From NCBI GenBank assembly GCA_012523945.1, contig JAAYSO010000104.1, positions 1-41,497 of the forward strand: a DNA stretch of 41,497 nt, given 5' to 3'. Source of the DNA: Bacillota bacterium. GTDB lineage: Bacteria > Bacillota > Dethiobacteria > Dethiobacterales > Dethiobacteraceae. Shown here piece by piece: positions 8,472 through 41,497 of this stretch. Made by a program: the position numbers and the translations under genes. Every line of letters begins with the position of its first letter. Positions within the stretch are counted from its first letter, which is position 1. Below the pieces are notes generated by a model that saw only the letters and a program-made list of their open reading frames with translations, had not been told where the DNA came from and did no database searches.

Positions 8472-8748
8472 AATAAACCCGTCCATTTGAGGACGGGAAT
8501 TTCCCGCGGTACCACCCCGCTTAGTTAAAGATTTAAGCTCAATCTTTAACTCTCTTGACTACATAACGGCTCCCGCCGGCGACGGCTACTTAAATTCACC
8601 TGCAACTCCCGGGTGATTTTCATTAAAAGTTACGCACCGGTTTCCAGCAAACCCGGCTCTCTGTGGCGCAGTCTTCTAATTACTCGTCCCGTTCATAGTT
8701 TTTCCCGTTTTAACTTGTTTTATCTCTAAACTTGATCAGATCAATTCA
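8472..8748 (-). promoter_or_regulatory. Isoleucine T-box riboswitch (ileS leader)
   Basis: Seen on the minus strand: a structured leader with the T-box core GGGGTGGTACCGCG at 8505-8518. It is followed by a terminator hairpin CCCGTCC/GGACGGG (8478-8484 and 8491-8497) and a T-rich tail. Stem I carries GAAAATCACC, with the probable specifier codon ATC (Ile) at 8615-8617. Uncharged tRNA-Ile should pair with the specifier and the T-box and favour antitermination. The downstream gene, ileS, matches the specifier. Confidence 0.95.
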
Positions 8749-37853: not shown

Positions 37854-38399
37854 TTACAGCAGATCTTTAACCATGGCGCCAAGTGTTTCGGCATCAATTG
37901 GCCCATAATGCAGATGCCGGATAACACCATTGCGGTCTAAAAGCAAGGTTTTGGGAATGGAATATGCCTCATAAAGGATACTGACCTGCCAATCTTCATC
38001 AATCAGTACCGGAAAAGTATAACCGTGTCGCCGCATAAAATCGGCTGCTTCCGCCGGGCTGTCATTAATATTTACCGCCAAAATAGTAAATCCTTCACTA
38101 TGTAATTCAGTGTAAACATCTTGCATATCCGGCATCTCGGCCCGACAATACGGGCAGCTGATAGCCCAAAAATTTAGCATTACTACTTGTCCTCTTTGCT
38201 CGCTTAAACTAATTTTATTCCCGTCCAAATCTTTCAAAGTAAAATCAGGAGCCCGCATGTCCACAGCGATTCCTACCGGTACATCAGCAACGGGATCCTG
38301 CTCCGCATTCTTTGCCTTTTGGCTGAACTGTTTCTGTAAAAAAAAGATGGCTGCAGCCACAATTATAATTGTTACAAGCAGGGGAAGAATTTTTCTCAT
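37854..38399 (-). CDS. resA: ResA/TlpA-type membrane-anchored thiol-disulfide oxidoreductase
   Basis: Extracytoplasmic thioredoxin-fold protein that keeps thiols reduced, classically the CXXCH haem site of apocytochrome c or spore-envelope proteins. Seen: 181 residues. An N-terminal anchor helix (ILPLLVTIIIVAAAIFF, about 4-20) precedes the thioredoxin domain with active site CPYC (Cys82, Cys85) in NFWAISCPYCRAEMP and the cis-proline segment SIPKTLLLD. ATG 38399 follows GAGGTGG; the open frame upstream to 38663 overlaps ccdA and is rejected. It lies 17 bp after ccdA, which supplies electrons across the membrane. Confidence 0.93.
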   Translation of the reverse strand: MRKILPLLVTIIIVAAAIFFLQKQFSQKAKNAEQDPVADVPVGIAVDMRAPDFTLKDLDGNKISLSEQRGQVVMLNFWAISCPYCRAEMPDMQDVYTELHSEGFTILAVNINDSPAEAADFMRRHGYTFPVLIDEDWQVSILYEAYSIPKTLLLDRNGVIRHLHYGPIDAETLGAMVKDLL

Positions 38400-38416: not shown

Positions 38417-39088
38417 TCAAAATGAGGAAAAACGACCGAAGAAGAAAGTGATACCTAAAGCCACCATAAAGATACCGAAAATGCGTTGCACAGTAGGCAG
38501 AAGCCGGCGATAACGTTCCAACCAGCGGCTCAAATGTTCCACCAGAAAAGCCGCCACTAAAAACGGTATTGCCATCCCCAGGGCAAAAGCCACAAATAAA
38601 GCAACACCGCCCCCTGTTGCGGCCGCATAAGCAATCATTGCCCCCAGAACCGGACCGATACAAGGCGTCCAGCCGGCAGCAAAAGCTACGCCCAGTAAAA
38701 TTGATGTCCCGGGACCTGCCGCCTGCGGGCGATATTGCACGCGTCGCTCCCGATTAAACAAAGTGGGAGATAAGATGCCCGCCAGGTGCAAACCAAAAAG
38801 CAAAATCAAAACACCGGCTATACGCTGTACAATAGCCTGGTAAGGAGCAAAAAAACCGCCAAACCAGCCGGCCACAAGGCCTAGAAGGATAAAAACGGCA
38901 CTAAAACCGACAACAAAATTTAAACTGTTAAAAAGTATCTTGTTTTTTTGTACACTTTGTTGATCACCGGTAACTGATCCGGTCAAAAACCCTAGATAGG
39001 CCGGCAAAAGCGGCAAATGGCAAGGAGAAAAAAAAGCAACCATGCCGGCAACAAAAGCGGCAACTACAGATAAACTCTCCGGCTGCAT
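38417..39088 (-). CDS. ccdA: CcdA transmembrane thiol-disulfide carrier
   Basis: Moves reducing equivalents from cytoplasmic thioredoxin across the membrane to ResA-like proteins. Seen: 223 residues, six hydrophobic helices. The paired redox cysteines are Cys23 in FFSPCHLPLLPAYLGF and the one in GWTPCIGPVLGA (about residue 145). ATG 39088 is seven bases after AGGAGG; the frame upstream to 39133 is rejected. It precedes resA, and its ribosome site lies inside a CsoR-type operator-like palindrome, next to a CsoR-family repressor gene. Confidence 0.95.
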   Translation of the reverse strand: MQPESLSVVAAFVAGMVAFFSPCHLPLLPAYLGFLTGSVTGDQQSVQKNKILFNSLNFVVGFSAVFILLGLVAGWFGGFFAPYQAIVQRIAGVLILLFGLHLAGILSPTLFNRERRVQYRPQAAGPGTSILLGVAFAAGWTPCIGPVLGAMIAYAAATGGGVALFVAFALGMAIPFLVAAFLVEHLSRWLERYRRLLPTVQRIFGIFMVALGITFFFGRFSSF

Positions 39089-39089
39089 A

Positions 39090-39110
39090 AAATACCTCCT
39101 CGGGGTATTT
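39090..39110. promoter_or_regulatory. CsoR-type operator-like palindrome at the ccdA ribosome site
   Basis: Seen: a 21-bp pseudo-palindrome centred at 39100. Minus-strand reading is AAATACCCC-GAG-GAGGTATTT; eight of ten arm positions pair. ATACCC...GGTAT resembles operators of the CsoR/CstR family (established knowledge: G-rich cores flanked by ATAC/GTAT). It overlaps the AGGAGG of ccdA and lies downstream of the promoter at 39123-39152, where a bound repressor would block transcription. Confidence 0.6.
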
Positions 39111-39122
39111 GTGATATGTACA

Positions 39123-39163
39123 ATTATGAACAAAAATATGCTGTATTGTCAACAGCATATTTT
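39123..39163 (-). promoter_or_regulatory. ccdA promoter embedded in the csoR terminator-like hairpin
   Basis: Seen: perfect 12-bp arms AAAATATGCTGT (39133-39144) and complement (39152-39163), loop of seven, followed on the minus strand by a T-rich stretch, so it can terminate the csoR transcript. The loop and one arm contain TTGACA (39147-39152). An 18-bp spacer and CATAAT (39123-39128) complete a promoter for ccdA-resA. Confidence 0.75.
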
Positions 39164-39187
39164 ATCTCTTCACACTTTCTTCATATT

Positions 39188-39451
39188 CTAGCTAATATAT
39201 TTACCCAACAAATTCATTAGTTCGTCAACAAAATCTAAATCCGGCTCCTTCTCCGTGGCGGCTTCCAGACAACTTCTGAAGTGGGTCTGGAAAACCATGG
39301 TTCCCACCTTATTAATGGCCGCTTTAACGGCAGCAACTTGCATCAAGATTTCTGCACAATTCTGGCCTTCTTCAATCATTTTTCTAATGCCCTTAACCTG
39401 GCCTTCGATGCGATTTAATCTGTTGATTATTTGGCGATGCTTTTCGTCCAT
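39188..39451 (-). CDS. CsoR-family metal- or thiol-sensing repressor
   Basis: All-helical DUF156 repressor. Seen: 87 residues from ATG 39451. RLNRIEGQVKGIRKMIEEG carries the N-terminal signature. The sensing residues are Cys32 (GQNCAEILMQ), His57 and Cys61 (QTHFRSCLE), with the 25- and 4-residue spacing of the C-H-C Cu(I) site of CsoR. CstR persulfide sensors normally lack the His, and formaldehyde sensors lack the second Cys. The open frame begins two codons earlier at a GTG; ATG has the better distance to GAGGTG. Located directly upstream of ccdA-resA, without any copper transporter nearby. Confidence 0.9.
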   Translation of the reverse strand: MDEKHRQIINRLNRIEGQVKGIRKMIEEGQNCAEILMQVAAVKAAINKVGTMVFQTHFRSCLEAATEKEPDLDFVDELMNLLGKYIS

Positions 39452-39499
39452 ACCCACACCTCATTTCTACATATCATCCCCTACACCACCAAGACATAA

Positions 39500-39701
39500 A
39501 GAAAACCCCACCATGCCGTGTATACCGTTAGTTTTGAACTGCTCTCTCTACAGGTGGGTGTCCTCCTGAATGCTTTACATGTCCTTATGGCAAGGCTTAT
39601 GTGCCACATTCAGAGCCCAGACTCCCGCTTCATATGTGTTAGCTCAAAACTTTAAACGGCTGTCACAAACATAGCAGGGTTTGTTAACGTGTTTCCGGTG
39701 T
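39500..39701 (-). ncRNA. ssrS: Probable 6S RNA
   Basis: Seen on the minus strand: a region of about 200 nt without a gene that folds into one long interrupted hairpin. Closing stem CCGTT (39655-39659) ... AACGG (39525-39529), then AGTTTTGA against TTCAAAACT. A large central bubble follows, then an apical arm CTGAATG/CATTCAG with CCTT/AAGG at the tip. A promoter lies directly upstream. This is the 6S architecture that mimics an open promoter for RNA polymerase. As I recall, B. subtilis 6S-1 also lies near aspS. A T-rich end near 39500 is weak. Identification from structure only. Confidence 0.62.
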
Positions 39702-40090: not shown

Positions 40091-40106
40091 AAAAGCTTAA
40101 GCTTTT
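40091..40106. terminator. Bidirectional palindrome between the membrane-protein gene and aspS
   Basis: Seen: perfect 16-bp palindrome AAAAGCTTAAGCTTTT followed by two more T on the plus strand, 1 bp after the plus-strand stop and overlapping the aspS stop codon. The stem is weak (AAAAGC/GCTTTT), so termination strength is uncertain. Confidence 0.45.
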
Positions 40107-41497
40107 TTGGGTTTAACCGTTTGAATATGCAGCTCTTTCAACTGTTCTGCCGTCACTGCAGAAGGAGCAGCCGTCATCAAACAAGTGGCACTGGCTGTTT
40201 TGGGGAAAGCAATAACATCACGGATAGAATCCCTTTGCGCCATGAGCATGATCAGCCGGTCGAGTCCAAAGGCAATACCGCCGTGAGGCGGCGTCCCGTA
40301 TTCAAAAGCCTCCATTAAAAAGCCAAACTGCTCCTGGATGCTTTCTTCGGTAAACCCAAGGAGTTTAAACATTCTCTCCTGAATCTCCCGCCGGTAAATC
40401 CTCAGGCTGCCTCCGCCCAATTCTATACCGTTTAAAACTAAATCGTAAGCTTTTGCCAGCACATTTTGCGGTTCACTTTCCAAAATGTCCAGATCTTCAT
40501 CACGCGGTGAAGTAAAGGGGTGGTGATTAGCTACATAACGCCCTTCATCTTCATCAAAATAAAGAAGCGGAAAATCTACAATCCATAAAAAATTACGTTT
40601 TGATTTATCAATTAAATCCAGGCGTTTACCCAAATGCAGGCGCAATTCACCTAAAGCCTGATAAGCAACTTCTGGCTTGTCTGCCACAAACAGTAATAAA
40701 TCATTTGGCTGGCCTTCTAAAATCTCCACAATCCGGTGTAATGTTTCCTCGTCAAAAAACTTGGCAATGGGTGAACGGATGCCTTTTTCCTCCACATACA
40801 TATAAGCCAAGCCTTTTGCTTTAAACTGGGCTACAAAAGCCGTCAGCTCATCAATTTCCCGCCGGCTAAAACCTCCGCAGCCCTTGGCGTTGATTCCTTT
40901 AACCACACCGCCGCCGGCTACAGCCTGCTGAAAAACTTTAAAACCACAATCTTTAACTACAGCAGAAATATCTTTTAACTCCAAACCAAAACGGGTATCA
41001 GGCCGGTCTGAACCAAAGCGTTCCATGGCTTCCTGATAAGTCATACGCGGGAAAGGAAGAGAGATCTTTTCTCCCAGGGCACCGGCAAAAATATAAACCA
41101 TCATTTTTTCCATGAGATCAATAATCAGATCCTGGTTGCAAAAAGACAGCTCAATATCAATCTGGGTAAATTCAGGTTGCCTGTCAGCCCGCAAATCTTC
41201 ATCACGGAAACAGCGAGCAATTTGGAAATAACGATCTACACCGGATACCATCAACAATTGCTTAAATAATTGCGGTGATTGCGGCAGGGCATAGAAATTC
41301 CCCGGATTGACACGGCTTGGCACCAGGTAATCACGCGCCCCTTCCGGTGTACTGCGCGTCAGCATCGGTGTTTCTATTTCCAAAAAGCCTTCCCGATCCA
41401 AAAATTGCCGCACCAACTGTGTGACCCGGTGACGCAGCATTAAATTTTGCAACATTTCCGGCCGCCGCAAATCCAAGTATCTGTATTTTAGGCGCAC
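40097..41497 (-). CDS. aspS: Aspartyl-tRNA synthetase, 5' end outside the window
   Basis: Charges tRNA-Asp. Seen: the C-terminal 466 residues. [13 protein letters not shown], class II motif 2 ([26 protein letters not shown]) and motif 3 ([13 protein letters not shown]) are present. The bacterial GAD insertion domain lies between them (residues about 185-330), with [13 protein letters not shown] following it. The N-terminal OB-fold anticodon-binding domain, about 120 residues, lies beyond position 41497, so the gene is truncated by the window edge, not broken. Whether it is discriminating or also charges tRNA-Asn cannot be decided without that part. Confidence 0.97.

Follow-up and report, generated by a model that had tools for sequence, protein, structure and literature searches.

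A CsoR-family repressor predicted to control ccdA-resA and further sulfur- and redox-related genes in a family of uncultivated bacteria

We analysed a 41,497-nt stretch of genomic DNA from a member of the Dethiobacteraceae (hereafter the window; its genome is designated G000) and found that a CsoR-family repressor encoded there very probably controls the neighbouring genes ccdA and resA through a palindrome at positions 39090-39110. A sequence-only reading of the window had proposed this control of ccdA-resA in place of a copper pump, and the conservation of the palindrome supports it. The comparison of promoters further suggests that the same protein controls a broader group of genes related to sulfur and redox processes. 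Overall, the explanation that we consider the best, and rather probable, is a thiol- or persulfide-responsive, CstR-like repressor that came to act on membrane thiol reduction.

The csoR-ccdA-resA locus and its candidate operator

The genes of the locus are arranged on the minus strand in the order aspS, 6S RNA, csoR, ccdA, resA, a PK_C-domain gene, mraZ and division genes. The csoR gene (39188..39451) encodes a PF02583 repressor (E 5.6e-28; 97.6 bits against a curated cut-off of 22.8) of 87 aa from the ATG at 39451, which is better spaced than the alternative GTG at 39457 (89 aa), and its stop is at 39188. Alignment located the DNA-contact motifs of the family, RLxR and Gln, as NRLNRIEGQ and MQVAAV. 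The Cys-His-Cys site is intact (Cys34, His59 and Cys63, numbered from the GTG) and ccdA and resA follow directly on the same strand, exactly as the sequence-only reading had described. The ccdA gene (38417..39088, ATG at 39088) encodes a DsbD/CcdA-type membrane thiol-reductant carrier of 223 aa (PF02683, E 6.6e-19) with cysteines in SPC and TPC motifs. The resA gene (37854..38399) encodes a membrane-anchored, extracytoplasmic thioredoxin-like protein with the active site WAISCPYC; the nearest ncbifam model is ResA (E 4e-35, under the model's own cut-off).

Upstream, aspS (40097..41497, its 5' end cut by the window) is the anchor of an orthologous aspS-csoR locus found phylum-wide. The 6S RNA between aspS and csoR (39501..39683, minus strand; RF00013, 103 bits) serves as a positional marker of this conserved locus and is not thought to be a component of the switch. 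Many relatives have the motif CACGGCAT.GTGGGGTTTT upstream of their csoR at the corresponding position, which suggests that the 6S RNA is syntenic class-wide. Downstream, the lone PK_C-domain gene (pyruvate kinase alpha/beta, PF02887; 37157-37708, minus strand) between resA and mraZ also has a position conserved class-wide. Elsewhere in the window there is a T-box leader (RF00230, 138 bits) at 8486-8705 on the minus strand.

The ccdA gene has its own strong sigma-A-type promoter (39123..39152, minus strand), consisting of TTGACA (39152-39147), an 18-nt spacer and CATAAT (39128-39123). About 14 nt downstream of this -10 box lies the candidate operator, the 21-bp pseudo-palindrome AAATACCCCGAGGAGGTATTT on the coding strand (39090..39110, minus strand), with the inner part ATACCTCCTCGGGGTAT at 39092-39108. 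The reading's ATACC/GGTAT pseudo-palindrome over the ccdA ribosome binding site was thus confirmed, the Shine-Dalgarno sequence AGGAGG falling inside it; its account of the setting needed correction in that ccdA has a promoter of its own and the site lies downstream of the -10 box. Published type-2 CsoR operators are TAC-N9-GTA dyads around C/G tracts, in which TAC and GTA are essential, and the streptomycete (CsoRSl) type-2 consensus is ATATACCCCTNAGGGGTATAT (PMC3902906). By sequence comparison, the ccdA palindrome fits the type-2 consensus, and binding of a CsoR is predicted.

The bare palindrome ATACC-N7-GGTAT is not rare, with four matches in the 2.08-Mb genome and also four for the reversed control pattern. 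Despite this equal frequency, a chance palindrome was ruled out by conservation and promoter context, which place the ccdA site beyond chance. The csoR gene itself carries no TAC-N9-GTA within 160 bp upstream in any of 21 genomes, and csoR autoregulation in the family was rejected on this ground. Only in G000 and G001, the -35 box of the ccdA promoter lies within an inverted repeat, AATATGCTGT..ACAGCATATTTTT (39139-39168), perhaps a csoR terminator or a further regulatory element.

Conservation of the operator and further promoters that carry it

The comparison set consisted of 20 genomes of the family, and this ccdA was found in 13 genomes among them. The order csoR-ccdA-resA occurs in the genus of the window and one other genus (G001, G009, G015, G018), and the order csoR-mgtE-ccdA-resA in G003, G004, G005, G006, G010, G012, G013 and G017; csoR is present without this ccdA in G002, G007 and G016. 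Across the 13 ccdA genomes the operator is exact in eight, where it reads ATACCCCGAGGAGGTAT, near-exact in two, degenerate in two and lost in one. One to three core bases are altered in G005 and G017, one arm is degenerate in G004 and G006, and G013 has lost the site while csoR is still there. The promoter is conserved in 12 of the 13 genomes, and the offset of the operator from the -10 box is fixed at 13-17 nt, while the flanking sequence diverges between genera. The pattern ATACCCNNNGNAGGTAT gave 12 matches in 41 genomes, ten of them at ccdA, against four for the reversed control. The sequence-only reading had named lack of conservation in relatives as a result that would refute it; the palindrome passed this test, being kept to some degree in 12 of the 13 ccdA genomes. 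G014 has operator sites, but no csoR was detected there, which an incomplete assembly may explain.

The site is present at at least four promoters of G000. The four bare-palindrome matches of this genome were the ccdA site, one inside the coding sequence of copA (L005), which we regard as chance, and two in a ccdA-like promoter context. Of these two, one site with its promoter precedes a gene for a CoA-disulfide reductase (CoADR) with a C-terminal rhodanese domain (L006; E 2.7e-16), and the other precedes a gene for a NapH-like 4Fe-4S membrane protein (L004). When the promoter was included in a less strict search, an FmdB-like zinc-ribbon gene (L265) was added, which is followed after 215 nt by a YeeE-type sulfur transporter gene. 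Searching 20 genomes with the promoter-plus-site pattern TTGAC-N24/44-ATACC-N8-GTAT gave 47 matches, compared with 3 in the reversed control. The curated set comprised 47 sites at seven kinds of target, with the promoter TTGACA-16/18-TAnnnT; that the two sets are of equal size is an accident, and they overlap without being identical. At core positions left free in the bare-palindrome search, C6 was found in 41/47 sites and G13 in 43/47, with G at two further positions in 35/47 each, a C/G bias that would be expected for a CsoR operator.

Counted by genome, the targets were ccdA (12), NapH-like (12), a ferredoxin of 62-65 aa (6), CoADR-rhodanese (5), zinc-ribbon (5) and copA (1). The CoADR-rhodanese gene carries a candidate operator with the promoter in G000, G001, G002, G004 and G006. 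The seventh kind, a HesB/IscA-like gene with an in-frame TGA in UGGP context, accounts for six sites in the family and three further sites in family f4. HesB/IscA-like genes that combine this operator type with an in-frame TGA in UGGP or UGGS context were L178, L188, L204, L211, L220, L225, L231, L238 and L240; they are probable selenoproteins of two sequence types, one of the family itself and one of family f4. Two second CcdA-like frames, L081 (G003:C55:55732-56154) and L082 (G012:C15:1625-2047), contain two in-frame TGA codons each and are perhaps TsoB-like (rhodanese/DsbD) selenoproteins. Since the site stands at no fewer than four G000 promoters, that of ccdA-resA among them, it marks a regulon and not a single circuit. 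The circuit on ccdA-resA that the sequence-only reading proposed therefore holds as far as ccdA-resA is a target, and was incomplete.

Copper genes, sensor residues and the probable signal

The window protein has the domain, the RLxR and Gln contacts and predicted type-2 operators of the CsoR/RcnR (DUF156) family. Both cysteines are invariant in the 15 family relatives and in the 65 best matches outside the class. His59 is invariant in the same relatives and present in 59/65 outside, with Tyr in 6/65. The protein thus retains the Cys-His-Cys site of copper CsoRs, but it has neither their second-shell Tyr nor, in G000, a type-2 operator at the copZ or copA promoter: the residue before the first Cys is Asn in the window protein and S, N, P, D or G, never Tyr, in the 15 relatives, while Tyr is present in GtCsoR, SlCsoR and the copZ-linked paralogue. 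It shares the two cysteines of CstR, one each at the X and the Z position, but because it keeps His59 where SpCstR has Asn, we did not file it as a CstR, although its targets resemble those of CstR; and as CstR lacks this invariant His, metal may still be sensed. His7, which would correspond to the N-terminal W-position His of RcnR/InrS, is not conserved in relatives, and a nickel/cobalt sensor was rejected.

G000 has two CsoR genes, and the second (CsoR2) adjoins copZ. CsoR2, with a Tyr-Cys/His/Cys signature, lies beside copZ in 11 family genomes (G000 and ten relatives). The csoR2-copZ promoters and the G000 copA promoter carry C5/G5-tract sites such as CCCCC-N4-GGGGG, and no TAC-N9-GTA was found in the csoR2-copZ promoters of the family or in the copA promoter of G000. 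From these promoters, copper appears to be handled by the separate CsoR2 with a different type of operator. Binding to a copA promoter elsewhere had been named beforehand as a refuting result; this was answered in part, inasmuch as copA and csoR2-copZ of G000 carry the different operator type. Five genomes (G004, G005, G006, G013 and G017) have only the aspS-linked CsoR as far as detected, yet contain window-type sites, and G011 has only the copZ-linked CsoR and no promoter with a window-type site; the ATACCC-N5-GGGTAT sites were assigned to the window protein for this reason. In G006 no copper CsoR was detected and copA carries a window-type operator, which looks like a takeover. Besides G006, no copper pump or chaperone in the family genomes has a window-type operator.

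To place the gene in the phylum, we surveyed 398 genomes and read the 65 best-scoring matches outside the class, which are the most similar ones and no random sample, with their neighbours 1.5-2 kb to each side. Among these 65, 40 lie downstream of aspS; of the 40, 32 adjoin thioredoxin or RseC-like genes, none has a copZ or copA neighbour within the distance read, and 25 have TACC-N7-GGTA within 140 bp upstream of csoR. The arrangements aspS-csoR-trxA and aspS-csoR-RseC-like (L288-L352) are very common in clostridia, with the operator at the csoR promoter, and we found no description of them. Since this module elsewhere usually has an operator at the csoR promoter and the family has none there, we take aspS-csoR-thioredoxin with that operator to be probably ancestral; the family would have moved its operators to ccdA-resA and other genes. 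A tree of 62 CsoR sequences had too few columns and was weak overall, and it was used as background only.

Persulfide or a related thiol stress is in our estimate the likelier signal, favoured by the CoADR-rhodanese target (a known CstR kind), by the presence of a second CsoR for copper and by the association of the aspS-linked csoR with thioredoxin across the phylum. Cu(I) is a possible signal, if a doubtful one. A Cu(I)-sensing CsoR would release the same operators and the induced genes would repair copper damage: CcdA-ResA would hold cytochrome c cysteines and extracytoplasmic thiols in the reduced state, CoADR would restore thiols, and the Fe-S and HesB-like proteins would replace damaged clusters, a role similar to that of the Gram-negative Scs (suppressor of copper sensitivity) thiol proteins. 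This reading, which we regard as unlikely, is favoured by the intact Cys-His-Cys site with a His conserved in all family members, by the copA operator of G006, by the match of the operator type to Streptomyces copper CsoR sites (PMC3902906) and, rated strongest, by a single locus of another family (L330) in which csoR-copZ-ccdA-resA form one apparent operon with TACCATATAGGGGTA at the csoR start. It is opposed by the separate copZ-linked CsoR of G000 and ten relatives, whose different operator is also at copA, by the restriction of window-type sites at copper pump or chaperone genes to G006, by the lost second-shell Tyr, by a regulon rich in sulfur genes, and by the lack of cop neighbours at the 40 aspS-linked csoRs outside the class (among the best 65 matches).

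The signal for the same regulon might also be of some other thiol-reactive kind, for example formaldehyde, a quinone, another thiophilic metal, or stress by disulfide or oxygen. The DUF156 family does have formaldehyde, nickel/cobalt and redox members, Thermus TTHA1953 drops its DNA upon cysteine oxidation (PMC10318464), and the targets are general redox genes; but the N-terminal His of RcnR/InrS-type sensors is not conserved, aldehyde and nickel genes are absent among the targets, and CoADR-rhodanese points to persulfide, so we consider this improbable. We consider it highly improbable that regulation works at the RNA level, with the ccdA palindrome folding in the 5' untranslated region into a hairpin that masks the Shine-Dalgarno sequence (a thermometer or riboregulator) and CsoR as an incidental neighbour: the repeat is transcribed, spans AGGAGG and could form a short hairpin, but its folding is unexceptional (z -1.8, -0.5 and +0.4 in three genomes), its core matches a CsoR operator, and the same DNA site recurs at six other kinds of target, off the Shine-Dalgarno sequence and in a fixed relation to the -10 box.

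Proposed mechanism and comparison with known systems

For a thiol- or persulfide-responsive repressor we infer the following course from the CsoR family. At rest, tetramers of the window CsoR would sit on ATACCC-N5-GGGTAT sites of strong sigma-A promoters, at or just downstream of the transcription start, and block initiation; at ccdA-resA, the operator would additionally cover the ribosome-binding site. Persulfide- or polysulfide-type thiol stress would modify or cross-link Cys34 and Cys63, as in CstR, and the DNA would be released, with metal binding as an alternative release step. Once induced, CcdA-ResA would pass electrons of the thioredoxin pool in the cytoplasm across the membrane to thiols on its outer side, together with a small regulon for sulfur and low-potential electrons (CoADR-rhodanese, NapH-like Fe-S protein, ferredoxin, HesB-like selenoprotein and zinc-ribbon protein). 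Induction would thereby restore CoA thiol inside and raise electron flow outward via CcdA to ResA. Combined with ResB/CcsA, CcdA-ResA would make up a full cytochrome c System II. An obligatory role in cytochrome c maturation was rejected: almost every family genome has ResB/CcsA, and as several of them lack this ccdA, the link is not strict.

The repressor probably derives from the aspS-linked CsoR, which in other clostridia goes with a cytosolic thioredoxin and usually has an operator at its own promoter. We give about even chances to the full scenario, in which the aspS-linked clostridial CsoR is a thiol/persulfide repressor that was ancestrally autoregulated with thioredoxin. In one uncultivated family it would have lost its own operator and gained ccdA-resA as a target, along with CoA persulfide reduction, a HesB-type selenoprotein and the NapH-like and ferredoxin carriers; the copper ligands would have stayed, with copper sensed by a paralogue that uses another operator.

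Regulation of sulfur genes by CsoR-family proteins has been described before, for CstR, YrkD and TTHA1953. The persulfide-sensing repressors CstR of S. aureus and E. faecalis and YrkD of B. licheniformis share with the window protein the DUF156 fold and two conserved cysteines. CstR is likewise a paralogue beside a separate copper CsoR and has a target of the same type in E. faecalis, coaP for CoA persulfide reductase (PMC9405070). It differs in lacking the Cu-ligand His (ENLTEC in SpCstR, THFRSC in the window CsoR), and in S. aureus only one operon appears to be under CstR control (PMC5480029), while the putative targets of the window CsoR are scattered; we did not find ccdA-resA, NapH-like, ferredoxin or HesB-like targets described for CstR. 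The copper CsoRs of B. subtilis, Geobacillus, Streptomyces and M. tuberculosis have the same Cys-His-Cys site, RLxR and Gln contacts and ATACCC-N5-GGGTAT operator (PMC3902906). Unlike them, the window csoR has no adjoining copZ/copA, no operator at its own promoter and a replaced second-shell Tyr, and in G000 the copper job falls to a paralogue with another operator, no copZ or copA being under the window operator. TTHA1953 of Thermus thermophilus is a CsoR-like regulator of Sox genes that releases DNA on cysteine oxidation; like the window CsoR it represses sulfur and thiol-redox genes, including the thioredoxin SoxW, in a gene group that ends with ccdA, but its ccdA was without significant change in the mutant (1.15-fold, p 0.47) and its operator TACNNTACNNNNGTANNGTA is without the C/G tracts of the window type (PMC10318464). 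The open-licence literature searched for CsoR with CcdA, HesB/selenoprotein or thioredoxin contained no description of the window regulon. What is new relative to that literature is the predicted control of ccdA-resA and its companion targets by a CsoR with copper ligands beside a separate copper CsoR. The SoxR/SoxV/SoxW and Scs systems also place a CcdA/DsbD-type carrier and a TlpA-type thioredoxin under a stress regulator, as is predicted for the window locus; they belong to other organisms and to sulfur or copper control, and their regulators differ (the ArsR-type SoxR, and Cpx for Scs).

A full set of copper ligands should accordingly not suffice by itself for annotating a CsoR-family gene as a copper sensor, as the copper CsoR of these genomes is a different protein with a separate operator. 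The aspS-csoR-thioredoxin module of clostridia, in which the csoR promoter has an operator, is apparently an unstudied redox switch, and cultivated species would make it accessible. For uncultivated anaerobes known only from environmental genomes, the predicted regulon would concretely tie a thiol or metal sensor in the cytoplasm to the machinery by which reducing power is exported.
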